Origin: Symbiodinium natans
Taxonomy: Eukaryota > Sar > Dinophyceae > Suessiales > Symbiodiniaceae
NCBI GenBank assembly: GCA_905221605.1
Contig: CAJNDS010002530.1
Location: 186,001 to 250,000, forward strand
DNA: 64,000 nucleotides
Reading direction: 5' to 3'
Below are positions 3,001-55,559 of the stretch, one piece after another. The stretch's first letter is position 1. Each line of letters begins with the position of its first letter. The position numbers were made by a program, and so were the translations under genes. The notes below the pieces were generated by a model, which had not been told where the DNA came from, ran no database searches, and saw only the letters and a program-made list of their open reading frames with translations.

Positions 3001-6000
3001 TATCTGAAGCAATCAATGTGCGGCAACCAATGCATCTGAATCTCCCACGCAGATGCGATTACTGTTCATCCGAACACGCTCTCTCTGGACGACCACTTTG
3101 CATGTCTCATCGAGTCCAACATGCTGTGGACTGTTGATTTGTCAATGTTCACGTTCCAATCTGGACTCCGAAAGCATGTCTTCTTCAGTTGGAACAGTCC
3201 TCCATGCGCAGGATAGTACCTGATCTCAACGTCAGCAGCCTTCAGCGAGCGGTTGCCTTTTCCACCTCAGCAAACTGTGATTGCTGCTCTCATGATGTTA
3301 CTTGCGATTAATGGTGTTCAGTAATGGTGTGCATTGATAGTGTTCATTTATGGCATTTCCTCGAGCCGACAGAAGTCAAGCCACCCGAGACGGTGTCGAA
3401 GTTAGCTTCCAACTCATCCACTTGGAGACCCTGTGTCAGCGTCAGCTCTACCGGGTACCGGAATCACTGTGACAGAGTTCCCACTCTCTTACTTACAAGA
3501 GCGCAAATGAAGATCCGGAGGCTCGGAGGCGCTGCTGAGAGGAAGCTCTAACGTCGTCTTCACTGAGTCTCACCAGACATTTCGAGACTGAGAGCAAAAA
3601 GTTTCCTTTCACTTTTCCACTTTTCACTTCAGATGCTCTCAGTTGCGCCTGCGCATCAAAGACCTGCAGGAGCTGCCTCCCACAAAAGGGAGCGGTTTTT
3701 GAACAACCTTTGAGCAAACATGCACTCCGAATAGAGCCTTCGTAGTGGAGGGTCAAATGCTTCGTAAGCGAGGACGTTGCTCAATGCATCCGCCACAGAG
3801 TCCTGGACTGCCCCGCCATGGCACACGAATGGCGGCTTGAGCACTTCTCCCTCGAGGCCTTGGGAAAAGTCTCCAAATGTCGGGCCACAGCAATCGCCTC
3901 TCGCAAAGAGTATGGATACGAGATGGCAGTGTTCTCTGCGAGGGTCCTTGCAGGGCGAGCAAATGCGAGCAAGACAGCAAAACAGCACAGCAAAACAGCA
4001 AAGAAGGCCATGTCTGACATGTCGAGTCATGACAACCGTGGTCCTTAGCTCGGCGAATGCCAGAGCCAGCTTGTCCAAAATACGTTTGGGGTAGGTGGGA
4101 GCGATGTGGTGGAGGAGATCGATTTCCGAGGCGAGATCCTTCGCGGATCTTTGCACAAGGTACCAACAACCCAGGGGGGCTCACACTCTCTCTCTTGCTC
4201 TCTCGTTCTTGCTCATGATCGTTCTCCGATGGCAGCTAGCACTTGTTGATGCCACGTGACCGGATTGTCCAGCACGACTGTCGCGAACACATCTCCACAC
4301 TCCCGGAAGAAGGGATTGCCGTGAAAAGGAAATCCAGGACGATTGGCTAAAACCTGCATGCTTGCCAGGGGCCGGTGATGGCCGGTGGCTGAAGAACTTC
4401 TCCCACTGCAGAAGAGTAGACAAATCACAGTAGCGTGTCGGCTGCTTATGTTGCCTGTTCTCTTGGCACCCGGCCCAAAGCCGGAAATCTGGATGGATCT
4501 GGATGTCAGATGGACGACAGCCTTGGATTGCTCAGTGGCATATGGGGGCGATGCTGACTTCTGACGGTTCCTTTTTTGTCAGGGAAGATGGAGCGGAGCC
4601 TTGGCGGCAGAGACGACGGCCATCTCCGAGAAGCAGTTCTCCATCCTGTGACTGGGCGACCCGACAATGCCAAGCAGGTTCTGCAAGTTTTTGGGAGGTT
4701 CTCTCCGAGGCTTCTCTCTCCACGAATTCACATCTCTTTCAACAGGTACTCGTCCTCAATGAGCGATTTCAAAATGATAACAACTTCTGTCGGGGCTTTG
4801 TCCGCTTCGTCCAGTACCTTGAGAGAGCAAAGGTCTTTACAGGTCTCTACTATTTAAAATGGCTCAGGAAAATGATGCACCATGAAGTTACCATGAAGTT
4901 ACCAAATGAAGTCAAAGCACGCAAACCCTTCCGTTCTTTGCAGCCCGCACCAGTGGAGCATCTTCATAGAGCAGGCGGCCATTCTCCAAAACTGGGCGTA
5001 AAGTCAGCGAGCTTACCTCAATGACACCCAGGCATACCCAGGCGGCCCACGCACTAAGTCTTACATATGGAACAGGACAGGGATGCGAAATATGCGAATC
5101 GCAGTCAGGATGCTGTCGTGTCGCGGTGCAACTGTACATACTCACGCTCTGCTCTGAGCAGCTGAAGCGTACGATCTGCTGCCACATTCTTGCCGACTCC
5201 TCGCCGGGATTTGCAGAGAGATTGGTGTAAGGGGGCGTTCAGTCGCAGATGTCGCGGTAGGTGTGATTGGTGGCAGGGGCTTGTTTGACGGTCAGCGTCC
5301 TTGATTCCCCAGCAATAGCACGGCATGCTCGCCAGCTTCTTCACCTCAAGCGTGAGATGTCTGAAAGATTCTGAAGATTGGGTCTTGCAACCATATGCTA
5401 TGCTCGCAGGATCCTCTGCACAGGATCGAACAAGGTCGAACCATACCGAAACGAGTTGCACAAAAGAATTCTTTGCACCGTGTTCCTTGGCTCAGAAGAA
5501 AAAATTAAATAGTACACAGGCAAGACCGTCAGCAGCGATACTCTCTGTGGCCGATGCTGACATTGCATCAGCTTGCAGGTTTGGATATTGACAAAGCATA
5601 AACAACAAAGATTGACAAAGAGGTCATGAGCCAAGTAACAAGGCTGAAGCACTCGCATAGAAACTCCGCGGGGCGGGCACTAACTCTGATCGTCGTGGTG
5701 TGCGTCGTGCGATGCGCCGGCTCCCAACAACAACGTCGTCGGCATCGACTGTGACGGCAGGCTCCCTTCTCTGCTTGCCTGACTTTGGCACCGGGCTCTT
5801 TTCGACCGACTGAAGCCATCCTTCAACAGCCTCCTGAAGCCGCACCGGCAAGAAGCGTGACATCATGGCGTCGTGCACGATCGTGTGGAGGCACGGCCCT
5901 TCAGGACTACCAGCTGCATGACGTGCTATTCGAAGCAGAACCCGTAGAGACAATCTCAGCAAATCGCGTTCTGCTCGGGAGAAGGAGGAGTCAGATTGCG

Positions 6001-9000
6001 CTCCGAGCGCCGCAGAAGAAACCGTTGCAACGTCTGCACACAACTTTTCAGTTGCCGAAGGGACTAGCAATTGCAGTGCAGAGCTTAACTCTGAGAGCGT
6101 CATCTCAGGTAGGGTGTGTGTAGAGAAAAGGGCGGCAACCTCGGGACTCAACCAGCTGCCTGGCTCTGCAAGCGCCACGAGACGAAAGCTGCGTGCAAGC
6201 TTGTGTACTCGACCGCTCTCGCAGCGGGCATCGTCCACCAAGCGAGTTCCATCTGGCAGATCCAGTTCACGCTCTGTGCAAAGCCTGCTCAAAGCTGCCA
6301 CCAGGGCACCTGGCGGTAGCCGGTGCGCCCCATCCAGAACAACAACGCCGCCTGTACGTGCTGCAGCGGCAACTGGCTGGTCTGCCCATGAAGATGCTCC
6401 TGGTTTGCATTGATACACGGGGTCTGTAGAACTTGTATGGTGCGCCGGGCTGATCAAATCACTGAGGGACCACTGCAAATTTTTATGCGGTCCTGAAGTT
6501 TCATCGGTCACTCGCCTCTGGAGAAGATCTCGGGCTGTTAGATCTCGATGAAGATTAAACGTCTGCCTGCAGTGGCAACTTGCTAGGGGCCATCAGTCGC
6601 AAATTCCCTTCGGCGTGATGGCCCAGCAACAAGGAGCTGCCCGATTGCGAGACATTGCCAAAGCCGCCGCATGCTTCCGACCTGCCAATATGTTTGCCTC
6701 GGCCTCCGGCTGAGAGGCGCATTTCCAACCCTTCCCTGCACTCCACCGATCACGCCCCCAGCCCAATGCCTGCGGGAGCTGCCAAACCTGCAATCCGATG
6801 CTGGGGGGGGGGGGGGGGGGGGGGCCAGCCTGTGGCCGGGCAGACATACTTGACCTTGTCACACCTTTGCACCGCCTGCTGACACTGCAAGCCTCTGAAT
6901 ACTGCAAGTTTAAGGCAGTCAGGGGTCCTCGAGAAAGCCGACAACAGCCCCCAAGCTCACTTACGCTGCAGGTTCATGGTTCGGGAGTATGGGTCGAATT
7001 CTCGCCGGTGGCTTGTTCCTCGACCCGTGGTCGCTTTCCGCATCTGCAGCCCGACTGCGCGGACCGGAAACTGCGAGGTGCACCGCCTGGACCGCGGATC
7101 GGCACGTGGAGCGGCTTGGGCCGGCTTGGCTGCCACGCATACACACGCACACTCACACACACACACACATTTACATGTATATATATATATATATGTTTAT
7201 ATATATATACATATATATACATAATACAAAATGAACTTTAACAAAATTGCTAGAGTAATTAAGCATTCTGATGCCCCTCGCAGAAGGAGCTTCTGTACAC
7301 AGGGAGTGCATGTGCCATACCGTGGCACATCATGGAATGCCGATGGCGCGACGTGCAGAGTGCTGTCAAGGTGCCAAGTCTCCGTCCGTAGACACCGAAC
7401 GAGGGCACTTTTGCCGGCACCACGGGCTGCTATGAGAAGAACATTCTGGCCAGCAGCGAGGTCAGCCTACCACTTTGGCGGCTGCTGATTGACACTTGAG
7501 GACTCTTGGCTCTTCTGCAGGGTGCGCGCTTTCTCTGTGGTAAGGTTGATCAAGCCAAGAAGCCTGAATTGCATGTGCAGCTGCGTCCAGCGCAGCTGTG
7601 CGACAATGGCCAGCTACCAATCGGACTCCTCTAGAGGGCGAGTCAGTACTGCGGCATGGCGACGTCACTTTCGACGAATCCGGACAATGACTCACGAACA
7701 ACGAGCAACAAGTTGAGCATCCGCATGCATCCGCCCACCTCCGGCATCATTAGCGGCTGGGCCACTGAAATCCAAACCGAGCTGCAGCAGGGCCTTCAAA
7801 TCAAGCAAATGATGCGAACGAATCTTTGCAATCTTCTGCAAGCGCCCGAGCCCAAGGCAATGCTCTGCACTCTCTGGCGCGACCGGTTGAGAACTGCTTC
7901 AGATGATTGCAGGGCTCAGATGCTGTATCCCGATGTTTCCCAAAGGCCTTCTTGGCCTGCACAGCGGCCGGCGACAGATCAGAGAGAGGAGGGTAGATTC
8001 GTCGCCTCGTGTCAATCTATTCCTGAACCCAGCTCGGTGTGATGCACAAGACTGCGCAAGCACCACCCAGTCCCTCTGTGCCAAGTGACAGAACATGAAC
8101 AGCAGGACATTGAGAGGCATCAATGGCGGGCTGCTGTGAAGCGTATCTCTGCAAAGCGCTGCTTGAGAAGGAGAAGAATGCCGTGTTGTGATGGATGGAC
8201 TGTCGCTCCAGCTCCTGAGACACTGCATGACACTGCCGAGTTAGACCGCAGTCCCTGCAGTACATGCCAGACTAGTTGACTAGTTGTCAAACTTGCTGGC
8301 CCAAGCTGCCATAATCGTTTCTGCCGCAGTGGTGACGCTTTCCACATCGGCAGTGCTGAGCCCTCTATGCTCTCTCAAGGATGATACCAACTCCTCTGAA
8401 GGAGCCGACGGTATCAAAAGCCTCAGACATGGCGTCTCAAAAGCCGTGTCTAAGGCTGCGCTTGCGAGCACTGTCATAATGCCATATATGGACGTCAAAA
8501 ACTATGTCATTCTGCAGCGACACCCAATCTCACAAACTTATGCCATGTCCTGCCATGCAACGATTGAAATCGTGAGCGTAGGGGTGGGTCCAGAGCCCGC
8601 CCATCGAAAGGTGGACAAGGTGACGCCAAGGCAAAGACCCGAAAATGGCGGTGAACAGCAGCAAGGTGGCTGCTGCGGTCGTCAGCACTCCTTCAGTCAA
8701 AGAAGTGCGACGCACAAGCGAAGACTCCAATTACATCTGCTCCACTTTTGCTGACAGCTCTGGAAATGAGCTGCGACAATTCGGAAAAGCTGCGTGCATC
8801 GACTCCTGTTTGTCAGCACAGGCTCCAGCTGTTCGTACCGCTCGGCTGGAACCAGAAAGCGGCCATCTTCCAGGGACATCTCCCTATTCTCCAGCCTTTT
8901 GGTAAATTTGGCACGTCAATTTCAACTTGCGACGCGATCCAGGAACAAAAAGGCGGACCAAAGGGAAACGGGACGAGGTTCAGATTGTTCAACGTCGGGA

Positions 9001-27694: not shown

Positions 27695-28445
27695 CCCTGA
27701 AGAGGCCACGAGAGGCCGGAATTCGCGCGAAACCACAGCGGGAGCATCGAAGTGCAACGGAATTCGCACGAAACCACAGCGGGAGCATCGAAACGCAACG
27801 GAATTCGCGCGAAACCACAGCGGCAGCATCGAAACCAAGGACCCGTCCCACCGCGCGCGCCATTGCGGTCGGCAACCTAAGTGGCCCCCCCAGAAGAGGC
27901 CTGAAGAGGCCACGAGAGGCCGGAATTCGCGCGAAACCACAGCGGGAGCATCGAAATGCAACGGAATTCGCGCGAAACCACAGTGGGAGCATCGAAACGC
28001 AACGGAATTCGCGCGAAACCACAGCGGGAGCGTCGAAACCAAGGCTCTCACCGCGCGCGCCGTTGGCAACTTAAGTGGCCCCCCCCAGAAGAGGCCTGAA
28101 GAGACCACGAGAGGCCGGAATTCTCGGAAACCACAGGGGGAGCACAACGGAATTCGCGCGAAACCACAGTGGGAGCATCGAAACGCAACGGAATTCGCGC
28201 GAAACCACAGCGGGAGCGTCGAAACCAAGGCTCTCACCGCGCGCGCCGTTGGCAACTTAAGTGGCCCCCCCCAGAAGAGGCCTGAAGAGACCACGAGAGG
28301 CCGGAATTCTCGGAAACCACAGGGGGAGCACAACGGAATTCGCGCGAAACCACAGCGGGAGCATCGAAACGCAACGGAATTCGCGCGAAACCACAGCGGG
28401 AGCGTCGAAACCAAGGCCCCATCCCACCGCCGCGCGCGCCGTTGC
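27695..28445 (+). repeat. Nested satellite: 41-bp units in 186-203-bp higher-order repeats, EcoRI site in almost every unit
   Basis: The basic unit is about 41 bp, containing GGAATTCGCGCGAAACCACA followed by GCGGGAGCATCGAAACGCAA. Groups of about three units are followed by a GCGCGCGCC and GTTGGCAACTTAAGTGGC linker and AGAAGAGGCCTGAAGAG, making higher-order repeats of about 203 and then 186 bp (four in all). The last two, at about 28062-28247 and 28248-28433, are nearly identical. All six frames stay open, because 41 is not a multiple of three and stops are absent. This produces spurious proteins of up to 334 residues on the minus strand. Confidence 0.92.
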
Positions 28446-28865
28446 GGTCAGCAACCAATTCTTTTACTCTGAACGTAAGAACCCCATTGTGCAAGCACTG
28501 TTTGGGGAACAAACCTTTACAGCAGCCATACAGGTCACAGGTCATACGAAAGCTGAGACCTTGCCTTGCTTGACATTCCGCGAAGTCTTACTGCGGCGCT
28601 TAGCTTCGCCTTGCATCCAAGGCTTCGACACGCTTTGGTGAATCCCGCGGCTTTTCACGATGGGTGAATGACCTCAGGCCCGCACGCTGGTTTGCAGGAC
28701 TTCGTCTTCCCAGGTCCTGAACGTGATCGTCATGATAAATCTTAGTCCGAATGAGTGGGGATCGTTGCTTGCAGCCGGGAGCTTGCTCGGGCTTGAAGGC
28801 TTCAGGTTCTACATTCCATTTGGACTCTTACAGATCTTGCTCGTTCCAATCCCACGAATCGAGCA

Positions 28866-36615: not shown

Positions 36616-37169
36616 GATGCATGTGACATCACTTTACTTAATCAGAACGCAACTGTCCATGGTGCTTTAGCCACTTTTGACCCTGCCTGGTAAGTCTTTG
36701 CAAAGTGAATCTGGGCCTTGCTGAGCAGTGCAACGATGTGCAGCGCAGTGCAACGCCACGCAGCCCAATGCCACAATGTCTGGACTTTTGATAATTTGTT
36801 ATGATCAAGGCGAGACCCTGTCTACATCGAAGAGGCACCGCACGGTTGGTGATCCAGCATATTCCACGTGCCCTCCCTATCCTATGGTCGGCGACATCGC
36901 CATCTGCAGTGTCAGCCCCGACAAGGGTGGCAGAACTGAGAGAGCAGCCGTGCGCTCGTCTGCCACGGATTTGGGACCAAGGTGGCCTCTGCTGTAGCTA
37001 GCCTCACCAGATCAGGTTCTGGCATTCTTCGAGCTTAACAATTGGTGAGGGTGACAGCTTGCAGCAGGACGCATTGGGGGCACTTCAAGCCGCTCATCTT
37101 TTCATCTGCGGGTCGGGTCAGCAAAGCCACTCAGTTTCCAGACGAACCTTAAGTGCTCGAGAGGACATG

Positions 37170-38629
37170 CTACCCTTCAGATTCTGCACAGGCCGACAGC
37201 TCAGCACGTAGTGAGCCAAAAGGGGACCATGAAGTGCGATGGAGTACGAACATTGAATTCAACACATGCGGCACCGACAGCACCTGCCCTTCTTCTCTGA
37301 GGTCCACGCGCTTCTTGCGAGCGGGCGCAACTCCACCCTCAGAAAACCCCTTATTGTCAAAATCTCCTAAAGTCCGAAAGCTCCTAATTTAAGCTCCTCC
37401 TCAGACTAATTTTGAAGTCTGCTGCCGTTTCGAACAGCTTCTACGAGCTTCCCTTGTGTTCGCAGAGGATGTACATGATTTAGAGCATTACGTGCGCAGA
37501 GCTGAGAGAACACGAGGCGGCAAAAAAGGCACCTCGCGGAAGCCGTTCTTGAAGCGTCGGGCGATGTGCTTCACATACCTGTCATGAACAACTCTTGGAT
37601 GCAGCTACTGTACATGAAGCGTGATGCTGAATTCGGTGAACGACCCCCTTCTCGTTGGAAAGACGGCGTGACACCTGTTCGATCTTGTTTGAGATTGCCA
37701 TGATTGCCCGAAGGTCCGCTATGATTGCTGGGCGTGTTGTAGTTTGAAGTTGCTCAACAAAAGTGCATGGCGGGCGCCATCATCCGGCCTGTTCAGTGGT
37801 CGTCTGCATGCGTTCGGTTCTTCTTGAAGCTTGTCATTGCTTCGCGTACTTGGATATCTGGAGTGCGATGTCCCAGGGCATTTGGGTTGCGACGTGTTCT
37901 GTGATTTCGGCAAAATGCGGAAGGCAACAGAAGGCACCAAAGCATACCAAAGCAACATACCCCCAGCATTGCCAGACCTCATCCGTCCTGTGCCTGGAGC
38001 TCGTCGACGCTTGGACTGGAGCGTTGGCCGATGTGGATCATGTCTACACGATGGACAAGCTGTGCAACTGCACAACTGCATCATGGAAGCCCGCTTGGCC
38101 ATCTGCCTTCTTCGACCATTCATAAGAGCGGATCTTGGCTGCAGGGTATCCGCATGCAGCCTTGGCAGCCACTGCTTTTTCATGCTGCAATCGCAGGTTA
38201 TCGCAGGCTGGGGACTGCGGAGAGTGTGGCTACGCAAGCCGCGACGCAAGCCGCTACGCAAGCCGCTGTACTTACCACTATGCTCCGCGAGCAGTAGACC
38301 AGCAAAACGTCTCATTAATTCAGCGTCTTTTGCCTCGTGAACATTGAAGACTGTCTTTGGTGTGAAAATGATTGTGAAAATGTATAGACATTAAGTTGAC
38401 TGCAAGGCTCCTGCCATCACGAGCTAAAGATCAACCTCTCAAGTCCTCCTCAGTGACTCCCCAGCATTGCAGAATTGCGGCCACAGCACGCATTTCTTGT
38501 TCTGCGTGTGGTAGGAGCGCTTCCCACACCGGGGGCACAAGGAGTGTGTCCTTAAGGACTGCATGTGCAACAAGGCTGACCTGAGCCCTGGCGCTCCTAA
38601 GTCGAGTGCTTCTTGTGGCGCTTGCCCAT
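37170..38629 (-). CDS. RPL37: 60S ribosomal protein eL37, copy 1, six exons
   Basis: eL37 is a small zinc-ribbon protein of the large ribosomal subunit. Minus-strand exons: 38629-38610 (MGKRHKK, GC donor at 38609-38608); 38550-38490 (THSLCPRCGKRSYHTQNKKC, GT donor); 38160-38107 (AACGYPAAKIRSYEWSKK, GC donor at 38106-38105); 38015-37978 (SKRRRAPGTGRM plus two bases of Arg, GT donor); 37578-37533 (YVKHIARRFKNGFRE, GT donor); and from 37337 (GGVAPARKKR onward). The phases fit exactly across every joint. Both zinc-binding CxxC pairs (CPRC and CAAC) are present. Acceptors are AG followed by G except before exon 4 (CAG/T). The last frame runs on for about 45 residues past the usual C-terminus to a TAG at 37170, so a further intron or a dinoflagellate extension is possible. 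Confidence 0.95.
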
Positions 38630-38644
38630 TGCGGGCGTGCCGTC

Positions 38645-38655
38645 TCCACCTAACA
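38645..38655 (-). promoter_or_regulatory. Predicted trans-splice acceptor for eL37 copy 1
   Basis: Upstream of the eL37 start codon the sense strand reads TGTCTTGTTAG then GTGGAG. The AG at 38651-38650 would place the spliced leader 20 nt before the ATG. Only about 45 bp separate it from the stop codon of the upstream gene. Prediction from sequence only. Confidence 0.5.
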
Positions 38656-38693
38656 AGACACATGGTAAGACTCTGACGAAGTCTTGAGCGGTT

Positions 38694-40165
38694 TTATGTG
38701 CTCTTCAGCAGTTCCTGAACTAGTTCAGAGCAAGCAAGCTGCTTGGAAATGAAGGAAGCAGCACGCGCAGTAAGTGCCGCTCCTCCGGGCAAGCGCGCCA
38801 TGACCTGGGAAGCAAGAAGCCTCTCTTGCTTTTGTCTGCACAAGCCTGCAATTGCAAGGCTAGCACCATGAGAGTCGAGCCCTCAGTCACCTCGCCGACA
38901 GGCAGAGGAGCTTTCAGACATCTCTCATATCTCTCAGTGCCCTTCACGGTGTCTCAGCGCGGAATATGCTTGGACGCTTGGCAAGCAGCAAGAGCGAATA
39001 GCATAGAACTTATAGGGACCGAAGGATTCATGCACGAGGGGCTCGTCAGGAACCCCGTCTGGAATCGTCGGCAGCTGTGAGGGTTGGCGGGCAACTGATG
39101 GTAACAGCGGGGGACGCTGCTGCTTGGTGCCGCTGAGGAGTGCTTGCACCGTGCCACGACAGCTTCAGATGAAAAAGAATCAAGAGACGCTGTAAGTGTG
39201 ACAAAGCGCTTCTGGAGGTGGCACTCGTGGGATAGTGAGAAGCACACGAAAGCACCGAAGCTCAGTCTCGAGGATGCGCAAAAAAAAACTGGGGCCTGGT
39301 ATGCGTTCAGCATCACATCGTCTTCTAACCACCTCGGCTTCGTACAGGATGCTAAGGACATGACTCGAGAGGTCTGTCAAGCACTGGAGAATGGAAAGCA
39401 CTCGAGACCGCTTCTGAGATCCACACTGGCCTCCAAAGCAAAGGCCTTCATTTTGGATTCCCAAAGTTGCCTTGTATGAAACATGCGATGACGTCATACA
39501 AGACCAACACTGGAATGCGAAAGGTGCTGAAAGTGTGCCATTCACATGTATGAGCGTGGAACCTTCACCTCAAGGACGGAGCTGTTCTCCTTTCTGGATG
39601 GTTTGCTGCACAACACCACGTCAAGCGAGCTTTCCAGCCGAATGGTAACTAGAATCACACTCTTGAGACTCTTGACGCTTCGAGTGGACAGTTCCAGCAA
39701 TCAAGCTTCACAACGTCATGCCACGTCTGACTCCGTCTGACCACCGCGCCTCCACATGGAGCGCCACGGAGTCACCGGCAATTGTCCTGGTGGCGGCATG
39801 ATACTGGGATCATCCCCTTCCTCAGTATTGGTGATTAAACAGGTGCGGGACCGGGCACCGCTGATCCCCATAGCAGTTTGCAGATGTGCAGATGGCAGAA
39901 GTCCTTGCAAAGAGTTGCATCATGCCCTTTGGGCCCTTTTAGGCCCCTATACCCGGCCACACCCGGCCCGCAGTCTAACCTCGTTCGGGCCAAAATGGTG
40001 CATCGCGAGTTCGTGAGCAGAAGTTGGAGCCAGCTGCACTGGTGCTGGGACTTTGTGCGCTTGGAAGACCACACCGGCAGAAAGGCTTCGTGCCTGCGAC
40101 GCTTGCCAGGCGAAGGCCTCCCCATCCTGATCAAGGTGGGACGGAAGGTCCTGTCCTGTTGAATG
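38694..40165 (-). CDS. Unknown gene upstream of eL37, copy 1: 3' exons ending in TAA
   Basis: I do not recognise this gene. Minus-strand exon-like islands: about 40160-39965 (DLPSHLDQDGEAFAWQASQA then AHELAMHHFGPNEV); 39870-39740 (CLITNTEEGDDPSIMPPPGQ); 39475-39395 (ESKMKAFALEASVDLRSGLE); 39130-38965 (GTKQQRPPLLPSVARQPSQL then ESFGPYKFYAI); and 38845-38694 (CRQKQERLLASQVMARLPGG then KQLACSELVQELLKST and stop). The Pro-rich middle and helical end suggest a soluble protein. The gene continues upstream of the duplication edge into sequence that differs between the two copies, so at least one copy has a different 5' part. Confidence 0.5.
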
Positions 40166-40174
40166 GATTGCCTG

Positions 40175-40310: not shown

Positions 40311-40662
40311 GTCTACATCGAAAAGGCACAGCGCACGGTTGGTGATCCAGCATATTCCACGTGCCCTCCCTATCCTATGGTCGGCGACATCGCCATCTGC
40401 AGTGTCAGCCCCGACAAGGGTGGCAGAACTGAGAGAGCAGCCGTGCGCTCGTCTGCCACGGATTTGGGACCAAGGTGGTCTCTGCTGTAGCTAGCCTCAC
40501 CAGATCAGGTTCTGGCATTCTTCGAGCTTAACAATTGGTGAGGGTGACAGCTTGCAGCAGGACGCATTGGGGGCACTTCAAGCCGCTCATCTTTTCATCT
40601 GCGGGTCGGGTCAGCAAAGCCACTCAGTTTCCAGACGAACCTTAAGTGCTCGAGAGGACATG

Positions 40663-42110
40663 CTACCCTTCAGATTCTGCACAGGCCGACAGCTCAGCAC
40701 ATAGTGAGCCAAAAGGGGACCATGAAGTGCGATGGAGTACGAACATTGAAGTCAACACATGCGGCACCGACAGCACCTGCCCTTCTTCTCTGAGGTCCAC
40801 GCGCTTCTTGCGAGCGGGCGCAACTCCACCCTCAGAAAACACCAAATTGTCATAATCTCCTAAAGTCCGAAAGCTCCTAATTTAAGCTCCTCCTCAGACT
40901 AAATTTGAAGTCTGCTGCCGTTTCGAACAGCTTCTACGAGCTTCCCTTGTGTTCGCAGAGGATGTACATGATTTAGAGCATTACGTGCGCAGAGCTGAGA
41001 GAACACGAGGCGGCAAAAAAGGCACCTCGCGGAAGCCGTTCTTGAAGCGTCGGGCGATGTGCTTCACATACCTGTCATGAACAACTCTTGGATGCAGCTA
41101 CTGTACATGAAGCGTGATGCTGAATTCGGTGAACGACCCCCTTCTCGTTGGAAAGACGGCGTGACACCTGTTCGATCTTGTTTGAGATTGCCATGATTGC
41201 CCGAAGGTCCGCTATGATTGCTGGGCGTGTTGTAGTTTGAAGTTGCTCAACAAAAGTGCATGGCGGGCGCCATCATCCGGCCTGTTCAGTGGTCGTCTGC
41301 ATGCGTTCGGTTCTTCTTGAAGCTTGTCATTGCTTCGCGTACTTGGATATCTGGAGTGCGATGTCCCAGGGCATTTGGGTTGCGACGTGTTCTGTGATTT
41401 CGGCAAAATGCGGAAGGCAACAGAAGGCACCAAAGCATACCAAAGCAACATACCCCCAGCATTGCCAGACCTCATCCGTCCTGTGCCTGGAGCTCGTCGA
41501 CGCTTGGACTGGAGCGTTGGCCGATGTGGTTCATGTCTACACGATGGACAAGCTGTGCAACTGCACAACTGCATCATGGAAGCCCGCTTGGCCATCTGCC
41601 TTCTTCGACCATTCATAAGAGCGGATCTTGGCTGCAGGGTATCCGCATGCAGCCTTGGTAGCCACTGCTTTTTCATGCTGCAATCGCAGGTTATCGCAGG
41701 CTGGGGACTGCGGAGAGTGTGGCTATGCAAGCCGCGACGCAAGCCGCTACGCAAGCCGCTGTACTTACCACTATGCTCCGCGAGCAGTAGACCAGCAAAA
41801 CGTCTCATTAATTCAGCGTCTTTTGCCTCGTGAACATTGAAGACTGTCTTTGGTGTGAAAATGTATAGACATTAAGTTGACTGCAAGGCTCCTGCCATCA
41901 CGAGCTAAAGATCAACCTCTCAAGTCCTCCTCGGTGACTCCCCAGCATTGCAGAATTGCGGCCACAGCACGCATTTCTTGTTCTGCGTGTGGTAGGAGCG
42001 CTTCCCACACCGGGGGCACAAGGAGTGTGTCCTTAAGGACTGCATGTGCAACAAGGCTGACCTGAGCCCTGGCGCTCCTAAGTCGAGTGCTTCTTGTGGC
42101 GCTTGCCCAT
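40663..42110 (-). CDS. RPL37: 60S ribosomal protein eL37, copy 2, six exons
   Basis: Duplicate of the eL37 gene. Exons: 42110-42091, 42031-41971, 41653-41600, 41508-41471, 41071-41026 and from 40830. The 219 coding bases of exons 1-5 are identical to copy 1. In the putative C-terminal extension two bases differ and both would change the residue (Asn to Thr, Arg to Cys), which hints that the extension is untranslated or unconstrained. Introns show a handful of substitutions. The copy appears intact. In dinoflagellates highly expressed genes are often in tandem copies, and this pair fits that habit. Confidence 0.95.
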
Positions 42111-42125
42111 TGCGGGCGTGCCGTC

Positions 42126-42136
42126 TCCACCTAACA
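42126..42136 (-). promoter_or_regulatory. Predicted trans-splice acceptor for eL37 copy 2
   Basis: Same TTGTTAG/GTGGAG site as in copy 1, 20 nt before the copy 2 ATG at 42110. Confidence 0.5.
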
Positions 42137-42174
42137 AGACACATGGTAAGACTCTGACAAAGTCTTGAGCGGTT

Positions 42175-43646
42175 TAATGTGCTCTTCAGCAGTTCCTGAA
42201 CTAGTTCAGAGCAAGCAAGCTGCTTGGAAATGAAGGAAGCAGCACGCGCAGTAAGTGCCGCTCCTCCGGGCAAGCGCGCCATGACCTGGGAAGCAAGAAG
42301 CCTCTCTTGCTTTTGTCTGCACAAGCCTGCAATTGCAAGGCTAGCACCATGAGAGTCGAGCCCTCAGTCACCTCGCCGACAGGCAGAGGAGCTTTCAGAC
42401 ATCTCTCATATCTCTCAGTGCCCTTCACGGTGTCTCAGCGCGGAATATGCTTGGACGCTTGGCAAGCAGCAAGAGCGAATAGCATAGAACTTATAGGGAC
42501 CGAAGGATTCATGCACGAGGGGCTCGTCAGGAACCCCGTCTGGAATCGTCGGCAGCTGTGAGGGTTGGCGGGCAACTGATGGTAACAGCGGGGGACGCTG
42601 CTGCTTGGTGCCGCTGAGGAGTGCTTGCACCGTGCCACGACAGCTTCAGATGAAAAAGAATCAAGAGACGCTGTAAGTGTGACAAAGCGCTTCTGGAGGT
42701 GGCACTCGTGGGATAGTGAGAAGCACACGAAAGCACCGAAGCTCAGTCTCGAGGATGCGCAAAAAAAAACTGGGGCCTGGTATGCGTTCAGCATCACATC
42801 GTCTTCTAACCACCTCGGCTTCGTACAGGATGCTAAGGACATGACTCGAGAGGTCTGTCAAGCACTGGAGAATGGAAAGCACTCGAGACCGCTTCTGAGA
42901 TCCACACTGGCCTCCAAAGCAAAGGCCTTCATTTTGGATTCCCAAAGTTGCCTTGTATGAAACATGCGATGACGTCATACAAGACCAACACTGGAATGCG
43001 AAAGGTGCTGAAAGTGTGCCATTCACATGTATGAGCGTGGAACCTTCACCTCAAGGACGGAGCTGTTCTCCTTTCTGGATGGTTTGCTGCACAACACCAC
43101 GTCAAGCGAGCTTTTCAGCCGAATGGTAACTAGAATCACACTCTTGAGACTCTTGACGCTTCGAGTGGACAGTTCCAGCAATCAAGCTTCACAACGTCAT
43201 GCCACGTCTGACTCCGTCTGACCACCGCGCCTCCACATGGAGCGCCACGGAGTCACCGGCAATTGTCCTGGTGGCGGCATGATACTGGGATCATCCCCTT
43301 CCTCAGTACTGGTGATTAAACAGGTGCGGGACCGGGCACCGCTGATCCCCATAGCAGTTTGCAGATGTGCAGATGGCAGAAGTCCTTGCAAAGAGTTGCA
43401 TCATGCCCTTTGGGCCCTTTTAGGCCCCTATACCCGGCCACACCCGGCCCGCAGTCTAACCTCGTTCGGGCCAAAATGGTGCATCGCGAGTTCGTGAGCA
43501 GAAGTTGGAGCCAGCTGCACTGGTGCTGGGACTTTGTGCGCTTGGAAGACCACACCGGCAGAAAGGCTTCGTGCCTGCGACGCTTGCCAGGCGAAGGCCT
43601 CCCCATCCTGATCAAGGTGGGACGGAAGGTCCTGTCCTGTTGAATG
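42175..43646 (-). CDS. Unknown gene upstream of eL37, copy 2: 3' exons, stop codon lost
   Basis: Same exon islands as in copy 1, shifted by 3481 bp, with Asn to Ser in CLITNTEEGDD. The TAA that ends copy 1 is TTA here (42175-42177). The frame therefore runs on through the eL37 leader and first intron into eL37 exon 2, in the same frame as CPRCGKRSYHTQNKKC. The 5' side beyond 43655 is unrelated to that of copy 1. It may be a 5'-replaced or non-functional copy. Confidence 0.45.
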
Positions 43647-43865
43647 GATTGCCTGAAATGCACAGGAGCTTGCGTGCGAATTCCAACGAAGCCTCCGTCA
43701 GACCCGCAGTTCCTTCGCAACCCCACCAGGATCCATCCCAAGAAGCACCTAGGCCATGCAGCTGATTCGCTGAAGTTCATGCAAGCGCATGGCACGCAGA
43801 AAAATTGACACAGCGGGTAGCTTCACGCCAAGACTAGAAGTTTCGGAATGTCTCAAGGCAATGTT

Positions 43866-53076: not shown

Positions 53077-53200
53077 GTTACACTTAGGGGCATGACTTGT
53101 GACTTTCTGTTGGAACAGCTGCAGAAACAGCTAAATAATGGAGTGTACTGTCATGTTCCCTACCCCTCAGCAAACTCTTGAGCGAACGCTGACAGCGCAG

Positions 53201-53201
<1 letters not shown>

Positions 53202-53269
<68 letters not shown>
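53202..53269 (+). repeat. (CT)n microsatellite, 68 bp
   Basis: A near-perfect CT dinucleotide run. Shorter CT/C tracts also occur at 55355-55386 and 55478-55540, so the retrotransposon fragment sits between CT-rich blocks. Confidence 0.97.
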
Positions 53270-53270
<1 letters not shown>

Positions 53271-53782
53271 GCACGCATAGCCCCCCCCGAAGGGAAGGCC
53301 GCCCCGAGAGGCGCGCGACGTCCAAGGGTCCGTCTGAACGGAAGGCCCACGGTATTCGTGGCCCACCAAACGTGTCACAGGAATGTGGTGCCCCTCATGT
53401 TACCCGGTGTGTGAACCTGAAGAAACCTGAATCCTTCAAACCCCAATCCCCCCGCAATTCCCCAACTTGTTGAGGTTTCCCACTCTGTACTTCCTGTGCA
53501 GTCTATGCCTTCTGTACGCGGCAGAGTTGTTCCTTGACTACCCTGCTCGTCTACTCCGCCTGGCTAGGGGTTGTGGCTTTCCTCGTTGCAAACCAGTAGT
53601 AAAGGGGGAAGTTTTGACGGCATCCTACAAACACACCACACTTGAGGTCCCCCACTCTATGTCCCCTTTCTGGCCGGCGTTGTTGGTTCTATTCTAATCA
53701 CTGCTTGCCCCTTCATGTGTTCTTCGGCGTCTAGAGTCGTGATCGGGTAGTTGGGAGCCGCGGCGTTGTAGTCCCCCATGTG

Positions 53783-53971
53783 TTATCGTTCGCCCTTCCT
53801 CCGACGTGTCGCTTCTCGGTGAGGTGAACTCCTGCGCAGTCCGGCATCACAGATCACCTCTTGGACCAGGAGGACATGCAGATCCCTTAGGGATGGTGCC
53901 CCCGTGAGTGTTTCACAGAGGTCAAGTATATGTGGCACTTGCAGTCCCCCCACATTCCATGATGCGAGCAC
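53783..53971 (-). pseudogene. LINE ORF2, truncated endonuclease N-terminus
   Basis: Reads LASWNVGGLQVPHILDLCET then LRDLHVLLVQEVICDAG. The Asn of SWNVGGL and the Glu of LVQE are the first two conserved catalytic positions of the AP-like endonuclease domain that nicks target DNA. After about 60 residues the similarity ends and a stop follows, so the protein is not functional. Confidence 0.8.
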
Positions 53972-54025
53972 ATGTTGGCCCCCATCTGCTCGGTGTCTGC
54001 TTCGGTGAAACTTTGGAGCCCCCAG

Positions 54026-55039
54026 TCATAGGCCTTGGCGGATCCTCTCCCAGGTGCTCTGCACCGTTGTGGGTTCTTCGCGAAGAAGTCGCGCTACTTC
54101 TTGGAGATGGATCCATCCGGCCCCCGCGGTCGTGGTGTTGGGAGGCGCAGAGGCGGTGGCCGAGGCAATTTTGACCCCATTGAGCCACACTGTGCCTGTT
54201 GCGAACTCTGCTTCTACTCGCCGGGGATCTCCTCCGTGTTCCAGCGCAAGTCGTTTGGCTTTGCCAGCAAGTTTGGCTTTGGCTCGGCGTTGTGGACTTT
54301 GACTTAAGGCTAGCCAAAGCTTCTGGTGCCCCCCGTCTGCTTTCGCCCCCAGGATGAGATTGGCGTTGCGGACCTTCTGGAGGGCATTCTGAATGCGTTG
54401 GCGGTGTTGTTCTTCACTTTCGTCGTCTTTGGGGCGTATCGGGATGATGGCATACCCCCTCCGAATTCCTGGGACAAAGGCCGCCCCCATATCGATGTCG
54501 AGCCTCAATTGACTCGCTGTGTTCTGCGCGTTGTGAAGGGTCTCCGAGGCCGGTGTGTCTTCGGGCCATCCCCCCATAATAAGCGCAGGCTGGCGGCGTT
54601 CTTCTTCCCCCGAGGATGCTCCTGATGCTCCTCCCCCCAAGGCCCCTCCATTCAGCTGTCCGAACTTCCCCTCCAGGAGGGCCAGTCTCTCCTTGAGTCG
54701 TTCCTGTTCTTGAGTGATCTCGTCCGTGGCGGTCTGCTGCTGTTGTTGGGCCTGGTCAATGCGGTGGATGGTTTGAGACTGTGCCGCATGTAGAGCTTGA
54801 AGTTCTTGGAGGATGCGGGCGGTGTCCCCCATTTGTCCTCGTACCTCAGAGCGGACTTCCCCCAGGATTTCCATCTTGAGCTCCCGCCTCTCGGACCTCA
54901 ACTCTTCTTTGATGGCTGCTCTGATAGCATCCAAGGACAGATCCTCCCTGTCCATCTTTCTTTTCGCCCCCGGGGAACCGTCTGGGTTCACAGCTTGTCC
55001 TGCCCCTCCTGCCCCCATCGTCTGGAGTAGTGTGGTCAT
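54026..55039 (-). CDS. LINE ORF1 protein, 337 residues
   Basis: An intact frame from ATG (55039) to TGA (54026). Residues about 35-130 are a long charged and Gln-rich coiled coil (RAAIKEELRSERRELKMEIL ... QEQERLKERLALLEGK), as in L1-type ORF1 proteins that trimerise. Then comes a Gly/Ser linker and a nucleic-acid-binding-like domain (ALIMGGWPEDTPASETLHNA, GYAIIPIRPKDD), then a basic segment (RRAKAKLAGKAKRL). ORF1 proteins coat the element's RNA. ORF2 follows in the same frame after a single TGA. Confidence 0.8.
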   Translation of the reverse strand: MTTLLQTMGAGGAGQAVNPDGSPGAKRKMDREDLSLDAIRAAIKEELRSERRELKMEILGEVRSEVRGQMGDTARILQELQALHAAQSQTIHRIDQAQQQQQTATDEITQEQERLKERLALLEGKFGQLNGGALGGGASGASSGEEERRQPALIMGGWPEDTPASETLHNAQNTASQLRLDIDMGAAFVPGIRRGYAIIPIRPKDDESEEQHRQRIQNALQKVRNANLILGAKADGGHQKLWLALSQSPQRRAKAKLAGKAKRLALEHGGDPRRVEAEFATGTVWLNGVKIASATASAPPNTTTAGAGWIHLQEVARLLREEPTTVQSTWERIRQGL

Positions 55040-55044
55040 GGCGT

Positions 55045-55313
55045 TCTCGGTGTCCCTGCCAAGTCACGTCCGTTACCGCGAACTTCCCCCTGGCGAGGTA
55101 GACGCCGCTCAGAATCTGGTCGCCCCCCTCCAGGTCGCAAAGGCCGCCGATCACGGTGTTATAGTGGTACTCAGTGTCCCCCGCACGCCTCAGGTAATGC
55201 AGGAGCACGGCCAGCAGCGGTTGCCGTTGAGCTTCGTTCCCCCCGGCAATGGTGGTCAGAACCCCCGGCGGGAAGACGCGTAGTTGGCCCCCCTGGTAGT
55301 AGAGCGGGCGATG
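55045..55313 (-). CDS. First open frame of the LINE, overlapping ORF1
   Basis: Reads LYYQGGQLRVFPPGVLTTIA, then LAVLLHYLRRAGDTEYHYNT, then GGDQILSGVYLARGKF. No ATG lies between the TAG at 55316-55314 and this frame. It enters the ORF1 start region in a different frame (HREN in ORF1 frame, HRER here). It is either a separate small ORF or an N-terminal part of ORF1 thrown out of frame by an indel. Confidence 0.5.
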
Positions 55314-55452
55314 CTATGCAGGCACGGGGGCAGCTGTCTGACAGCGGAGGCCTCCCTCTCTCTCCCCCCCCCCTTCTCTCTCTCTCAATCAACTACAGAG
55401 TTTTTGATTGTTTGCCCACAGGACGGCGGGCTGGGGCTCGAGCCGCTCGTGG

Positions 55453-55468
55453 CTTGAGCCAAAATGGC
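55453..55468 (-). other. Relict dinoflagellate spliced leader (16 nt)
   Basis: The minus strand reads GCCATTTTGGCTCAAG, identical to the last 16 nt of the conserved 22-nt dinoflagellate spliced leader. The six preceding bases (GGCTGC) do not match. It is placed at the expected transcript start of the LINE. A chance 16-mer in 64 kb is very unlikely. Confidence 0.88.
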
Positions 55469-55559
55469 GCAGCCTCTCTCGCTCTCTCTTCTGCATGTTG
55501 TCTCACTCTTCTTTATCTCTCTCTCCCGCTCTCTGTAGCTCTGGTCCCAGTTCTGCCCG

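Follow-up and report, generated by a model that had tools for sequence, protein, structure and literature searches.

Spliced-leader relicts at the 5' ends of LINE-derived insertions in Symbiodinium natans

A leader-tipped insert in a GA tract

The window analysed here, a stretch of 64 kb of Symbiodinium natans DNA, raises the question of how part of the dinoflagellate spliced leader (SL) came to stand at the 5' end of a LINE-derived unit, and whether the RNA of the element could have acquired it by trans-splicing. The sequence GCCATTTTGGCTCAAG at 55468-55453 of the minus strand is an exact match to the 3' 16 nt of the leader, DCCGUAGCCAUUUUGGCUCAAG (PMC6050394), and its surroundings on that strand read ...AGAGCGAGAGAGGCTGCGCCATTTTGGCTCAAGCCACGAGCGG... 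The match and its orientation, the same as that of the LINE ORF1 (54026-55039, minus), bear out the first-pass annotation of this DNA. It is the sole exact site in the window, where Markov models predict ∼1e-4 per 64 kb. The layout of an SL RNA gene is absent, the leader being followed by CCACGAG and not by a GT 5' splice site, and no Rfam family matched the window at gathering scores. The 16-mer thus has the features of a dinoflagellate SL relict, at the 5' end of what would have been a once-transcribed unit.

The genome searched comprises 759 Mb in 2,543 contigs, and all of the evidence is DNA from this one assembly. The SL 15-mer CCATTTTGGCTCAAG occurs 671 times (318 forward, 353 reverse), or ∼1 per 1.1 Mb, and is therefore not rare; the reversed pattern occurs once, demonstrating that these occurrences are not due to chance. 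The random scatter of leader-like 16-mers at a similar rate, which the annotation had named as contrary to its reading, is thus not observed. The full 21-nt leader is present 205 times (reversal, 0), and the exact leader fused to the 5' UTR start, CCACGAGNG, is found at 18 places (reversed control, 0).

The insert in the window is ∼2,199 nt long (55467-53269) with the SL relict at its 5' terminus. Its features and flanks, all on the minus strand and in 5' to 3' order, are:

55468..55488, minus: 5' copy of the target-site duplication, GAGAGAGCGAGAGAGGCTGCG; 5' limit uncertain
55453..55468, minus: spliced-leader relict GCCATTTTGGCTCAAG, the 5' terminus of the insert; 14-16 nt given a 2-nt GC overlap with the target
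55437..55452, minus: second unit adjoining the leader, CCACGAGCGGCTCGAG; a form intermediate between the SL and such a unit, CAATTTGGCTCAAG, is present in relative L122
55040..55452, minus: 5' UTR, including a G-rich and GA stretch; 92% identity over 412 columns to the sibling C2532
54026..55039, minus: ORF1, 337 aa; long coiled coil, RRM-like domain and C-terminal domain
53783..54025, minus: ORF2 start, left as a remnant of the endonuclease N-terminus (WNVGG ... LLVQEVICDAG); it shares the frame of ORF1 and is terminated by a stop
53269..53782, minus: 3' part of the element, with a UUCG-loop hairpin (53300-53279) followed by CTATGCGTGCAG
53196..53268, minus: 3' target copy, an expanded (GA)33.5 followed by GGCTGCG(C)

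The target-site duplication, AGAGAGGCTGCG(C), flanks the insert on both sides, and the terminal 12-mer AGAGAGGCTGCG is present on the minus strand only here, on the 5' side, and at the 3' flank; the last G of GAGAGAGCGAGAGAGGCTGCG, and the C that follows, could equally be assigned to the leader. Expansion of GA obscures target duplications, such that the unique part in the window is the GGCTGCG(C) end only. The duplication was initially drawn as TGCAG...GGCTGCG, a version that was dropped: TGCAG belongs to the element's own 3' end, and therefore only the (GA)n-GGCTGCG(C) part counts. An anchored k-mer test is weak on its own, as the preceding 13-mer recurs within 5 kb at 910 of 97,950 window positions when the tandem duplication of the window is masked, and at 6% when it is not. 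Since the duplicated target flanks the leader, the leader lies inside the insert. Between 46000 and 58000 there are no inverted repeats of at least 25 nt, and no direct repeat families of that length beyond CT-, G- or short two-copy matches. The insert therefore displays a target-site duplication without terminal repeats, as is required of a LINE. This organization bears on the possibility that the 16-mer is a chance match, or an older relict that was already in the target before the LINE landed alongside it. Such an origin is conceivable in a genome with 671 relicts, but it is extremely improbable given that the duplication sets the leader within the insert and that copies elsewhere have it at the same place.

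At its 3' end the window copy has no poly(A), and the stability of the hairpin is modest (z −1.5, or −0.85 for 127 nt). A similar 3' end occurs in relatives L084, L125 and L126. In L012 and L024 it immediately precedes the following SL, showing that head-to-tail nesting of elements can occur within GA tracts. Three further features of the window lie away from the insert: a tandem duplication (36820-40174 and 40311-43655, 99% identical), each unit of which carries a minus-strand ORF of 198 aa; local tandem repeats at 27696-28456, within a 334-aa ORF that has weak zinc-ribbon matches; and a dynein-related AAA_5 domain (E 4.5e-10) encoded by an ORF at 5624-6511.

The predicted model of ORF1 comprises a long coiled coil, an RRM-like domain and a C-terminal domain, and its Foldseek match to human L1 ORF1p (2ykp_A) is weak (E 0.027). 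The two named relatives returned by a protein search are from Symbiodinium; scans of viral contig and genome contig collections returned no relatives, and the ORF at 54849-55313, upstream of ORF1, yielded no homologues. The ORF2 remnant was identified through by-eye comparison with ORF2 of relative L024 and has no Pfam or protein-database match. No reverse transcriptase is present in the window copy, in which ORF1 and the short start of ORF2 precede the 3' end. The name LINE given in the first-pass annotation thus fits the intact ORF1 but not the element as a whole, of which just the first part of ORF2 is retained; the window copy is an ORF1-only LINE derivative, or half-LINE, rather than a complete LINE. 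The C2532 sibling has the same layout, and comparison of the two ORF1s (dN 0.026, dS 0.64, ratio 0.04) indicates that the protein has been under selection, part of which may predate loss of the reverse transcriptase.

The missing activities are found in relatives. L024 carries the leader, the UTR and an ORF1 whose matches fall in two frames (rows of C75); its ORF2 spans 1,019 aa from stop to stop and has RVT_1 (3.9e-14) and Exo_endo_phos (2.1e-6) domains in Pfam. L085, which has a full 21-nt leader, encodes Exo_endo_phos (4e-6) and RVT_1 (4.5e-10) in two overlapping frames, and its ORF1 is broken by a frame change and stops (rows of C1125); ORF1 is thus damaged in both. Reverse transcriptase and endonuclease, the defining LINE enzymes, are therefore features of this family, and LINEs that encode, or once encoded, the machinery do bear the leader.

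The leader among ORF1 relatives and at other sites

Relatives were selected through their ORF1 protein, blind to the SL, giving at least 91 matches in the genome. Among the matches listed, 55 elements have an alignment that starts by residue 57 (split matches counted once), and in 36 of these the exact 15-mer lies upstream. Upstream regions were read for 54 of these listed elements: 35 have the exact 15-mer, five (L100, L104, L105, L111 and L125) have an 11-14 nt SL suffix at the UTR start, and 14 have no recognizable leader. The search for the leader at the 5' ends of other copies, as the annotation had advised, was therefore productive. The fifty-fifth relative, C1803 (L128), is distant (26% identity); its exact 15-mer lies ∼730 nt upstream in a telomere-like flank and may not form one unit with the ORF1. 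In 720 mononucleotide shuffles the best score never exceeded 12/15, and 11 or 12 was reached in 51, so the shortest suffixes, whose scores fall inside this null, count through their place at the UTR start and not through their score.

The upstream sequence of these elements reveals the target. Among the matches listed, (GA)4 or longer occurs within 60 nt upstream of 30 of the 35 leader-bearing copies, against a background of 164/19,851. Mutual BLAST matches between the upstream flanks of the 35 amount to 15 rows of 28-56 nt, 11 of which involve L024, and the stretches inspected, that of L024 included, are GA-rich. Continuous homology upstream of the leader, which would be contrary to a leader at the terminus, was sought; leader-bearing copies share only these 28-56 nt stretches.

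The 14 leaderless relatives, defined among the matches listed by the absence of a recognizable leader within ∼800 nt (L112 is partly masked), are of three kinds. Seven (L093, L098, L110, L112, L114, L115 and L116) resemble leader-bearing 5' UTRs only at least 90 nt inside the UTR and two (L107 and L120) have no similarity to them, so that nine also lack a recognizable UTR start. Five retain it: the alignments of L097 and L126 end at the leader boundary, and those of L106, L109 and L121 extend into a flank that appears to be GA-like.

Leader lengths in the 35 copies among the matches listed are 16 (three copies), 17 (seven), 19 (19), 20 (three) and 21 nt (three), of which up to two bases may be those of the target in GA tracts. 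SL position 8 was considered as a fixed stop for reverse transcription and was dropped in view of this spread. In Polarella, ∼70% of leader-bearing full-length transcripts are described as beginning at leader position 2 or 8 (PMC7245778). An initial division in which the full 21-nt leader was absent from LINE and type B sites (0/14) and frequent at others (26/55) was softened, as L072, L075 and L124 have the full leader. Five type-A leaders show a weak stem between SL and UTR but fold differently from one another, so that no structure is claimed for the LINE.

A second class of site, type B, consists of the SL, a spacer and GGCTTGAGYC, and was found at 41 places (reversed control, 0), among them L005, L011, L020, L022, L045, L057 and L068. 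The base of the type B hairpin is formed by the last 8 nt of the SL, an 8-nt pairing between leader and element that is preset by the search pattern. In the upper stem, 76 of 96 positions pair; shuffling gives 46.6, and the observed number was not reached in any of 2,000 shuffles. The test used 24 of 25 distinct sequences, one without TC after the SL being dropped, and kinship can inflate the result. The upper stem may thus covary, in which case selection may have moulded this RNA around the leader. The flanks of the seven type B sites first read are mostly purine-rich and of GA type, that of L011 being the exception. The type B sites have no homology to the ORF2 of L024, and no Pfam match was obtained for the ORFs tried from L005 and L020.

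Other SL sites lie outside the LINE. By eye, ∼14 of 69 are directly preceded by telomere-like repeats, CCCTAAA or TTTAGGG (L003, L038, L040, L042, L049, L055, L056, L058, L062, L066 and others), and these may be retrocopies with a telomere-repeat target of their own. A separate case is L001 (1936-2913 of IMGVR_UViG_3300045993_001077), an island of ∼48% GC in a 7-kb contig that is filed as viral and is mostly 9-25% GC. The island has a full 21-nt SL at its start and a 254-aa ORF, with a second full SL 147 bp upstream, and has the appearance of a dinoflagellate mRNA that was reverse transcribed and then taken up into an AT-rich genome.

It could be argued that the window insert is a passenger, an ordinary host mRNA with LINE sequence in it that owes its retroposition to some unrelated retroelement, in which case the LINE would make no use of SL RNA. 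Retroposed SL mRNAs are common in dinoflagellates (PMC12014239, PMC6050394), and of the 69 SL sites read, 62 lie away from the 5' UTR of this LINE. A passenger would not, however, be expected to share the LINE 5' UTR, ORF1 and GA target with dozens of insertions, two of them with endonuclease and reverse transcriptase, nor to end in the LINE 3' end found in the window copy and three relatives. These data make the passenger explanation highly unlikely.

Signs of repeated rounds and a proposed cycle

Several relatives carry more than one leader. Exact tandem leaders are present as two units in L012, L031, L067 and L113, and as three in L074 and L118. In L122 an exact leader is followed by a decayed leader, CAATTTGGCTCAAG, and then CCACGAGTGCTCAAG; by comparison, CCACGAGCGGCTCGAG in the window copy is probably an older, decayed leader. 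The junction with the element also varies. Among the matches listed, CC[AG][CT]GAG directly follows the leader in 22 of the 35 copies; L092, L108 and L127 have the leader joined after the internal AG of CCACGAG, and the sequence in ten takes neither form. The three internal junctions are as expected if splicing had used another acceptor, although small deletions could also give them. The tandem leaders, together with the alternative junctions, suggest that trans-splicing took place repeatedly.

These observations also address a simpler history, in which a single capture made the SL an inherited, encoded 5' part of the element (for example, a promoter), transcribed and copied along with the remainder and with no new trans-splicing. 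The occurrence of the leader at one place in most copies, with a common sequence after it, is consistent with such a module, as an SL block from a founding event would likewise mark many 5' ends, and TTT(G) in relict leaders has been proposed as a promoter motif by Song et al. (PMC6050394). A module inherited from one event does not readily explain exact double and triple leaders, the graded decay in L122, the SL at an alternative AG in three copies, or an exact SL beside ORF1s with as little as 35% identity to that of the window, and we consider it unlikely.

Two close copies of the window insert inform the reverse transcription step. C638 (99.9% identity over 2,262 nt) and C1895 (L126; 99.8% over 2,205 nt) have unrelated flanks and start, respectively, 11 nt and 3 nt (AAG) from the end of the leader; the corresponding remnant in the window copy is 16 nt. 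Reverse transcription halting at different points of one SL-tipped RNA would give this series, although the 3 nt in C1895 may be chance. LINEs of this group have been described as old, divergent remnants with Kimura distances of 15-40 (PMC8045281), in contrast to the 99.8-99.9% identity of these copies, which points to recent movement.

The leader stands at the 5' terminus of many insertions with differing flanks, GA tracts are the targets, and SL-bearing relatives contain endonuclease and reverse transcriptase. From these sequences we infer a cycle, including its trans-splicing, read-through transcription, supply of enzymes in trans and order of steps. The element would be transcribed, probably via read-through from upstream, and the host would join the 22-nt SL to an AG near the 5' end, mostly the terminal AG of the preceding leader (CTCAAG|CCACGAG) but at times a different one. 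The LINE endonuclease and reverse transcriptase, which for the window copy would be provided in trans, would then nick a GA microsatellite and copy the RNA from its 3' end. Synthesis would halt within the leader or close to it, after which the cDNA would be joined to the target. As each leader ends in AG it could serve as the next acceptor, such that the 5' end would be renewed in each cycle, and choice of an upstream AG would produce tandem leaders. Tandem leaders would then count past cycles, and leader lengths would record the points at which reverse transcription stopped.

We are thus highly confident that the insert derives from a LINE through a host-capped, SL trans-spliced RNA that was reinserted into GA tracts by target-primed copying. 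The proposal of the first-pass annotation, that the RNA of the element was trans-spliced and then reverse transcribed into the genome, is supported in this sense by the 5'-terminal leaders, the tandem leaders and the alternative junctions. A broader hypothesis is that the mobile RNA depends on the SL as an obligatory 5' end that renews itself, allowing a LINE without a promoter of its own to rely on read-through, and that the type B RNA is shaped around the leader; we regard it as about as likely as not. If it is true, the SL serves as cap, acceptor and structural part of LINE RNA, and the 5'-end problem of LINEs, keeping promoter and cap while transposing, is solved by borrowing through trans-splicing.

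Relation to known systems

The family may resemble L1-type LINEs in the architecture of ORF1, given the weak Foldseek match, and it shares with them the endonuclease and reverse transcriptase found in relatives, but the window copy differs in its GA-microsatellite target, its 5' leader and the lack of a 3' poly(A). HAL1-like half-LINEs are likewise ORF1-only elements without reverse transcriptase. The layout they share with the window copy and its C2532 sibling is an analogy only, as HAL1 is mammalian whereas the lineage here is that of a protist and bears the SL. SLACS/CRE LINEs of trypanosomatids also bring a LINE and the SL together; these insert into SL RNA genes, whereas here the SL lies within the insert and the target is (GA)n.

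Two retroelements of other trans-splicing hosts are instructive. L1Tc of Trypanosoma cruzi is, like the present element, an APE-type LINE in a host with SL trans-splicing, but its transcripts are described as arising from the internal Pr77 promoter and as unspliced (PMC4748587), the opposite solution to that proposed here. Cer1 of C. elegans has a spliced mRNA that bears SL1; it is, however, an LTR element, and its 8-kb RNA is reported not to be trans-spliced at the SL1 site (PMC3315495).

Retroposed genes with relict leaders are well documented in dinoflagellates. The element that mediates their formation has been called unknown in a 2018 review, with LTR elements favoured (PMC6050394), or retrotransposons in general have been invoked (PMC12014239), and leaders near endogenous RNA-virus fragments have led to LINEs being suspected (PMC10235124). 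The DinoRL system is alike in that SL trans-spliced RNA is copied to DNA, leaving the 15-nt relict CCATTTTGGCTCAAG, and in tandem relicts that count rounds (PMC12014239, PMC6050394). In contrast to DinoRL, it is the RNA of a retrotransposon that is retroposed here, and the element has ends of its own and a GA target. In the literature searched, which took in few subscription papers, no LINE bearing relict leaders was seen to be described. The present data join two facts that have stood apart, the many relict leaders of dinoflagellate genomes and the lack of a known retroelement responsible for them (PMC6050394): a direct candidate for the relict-leader machinery is provided by a LINE lineage that bears relict leaders itself and combines an endonuclease with a preferred target and a target duplication.
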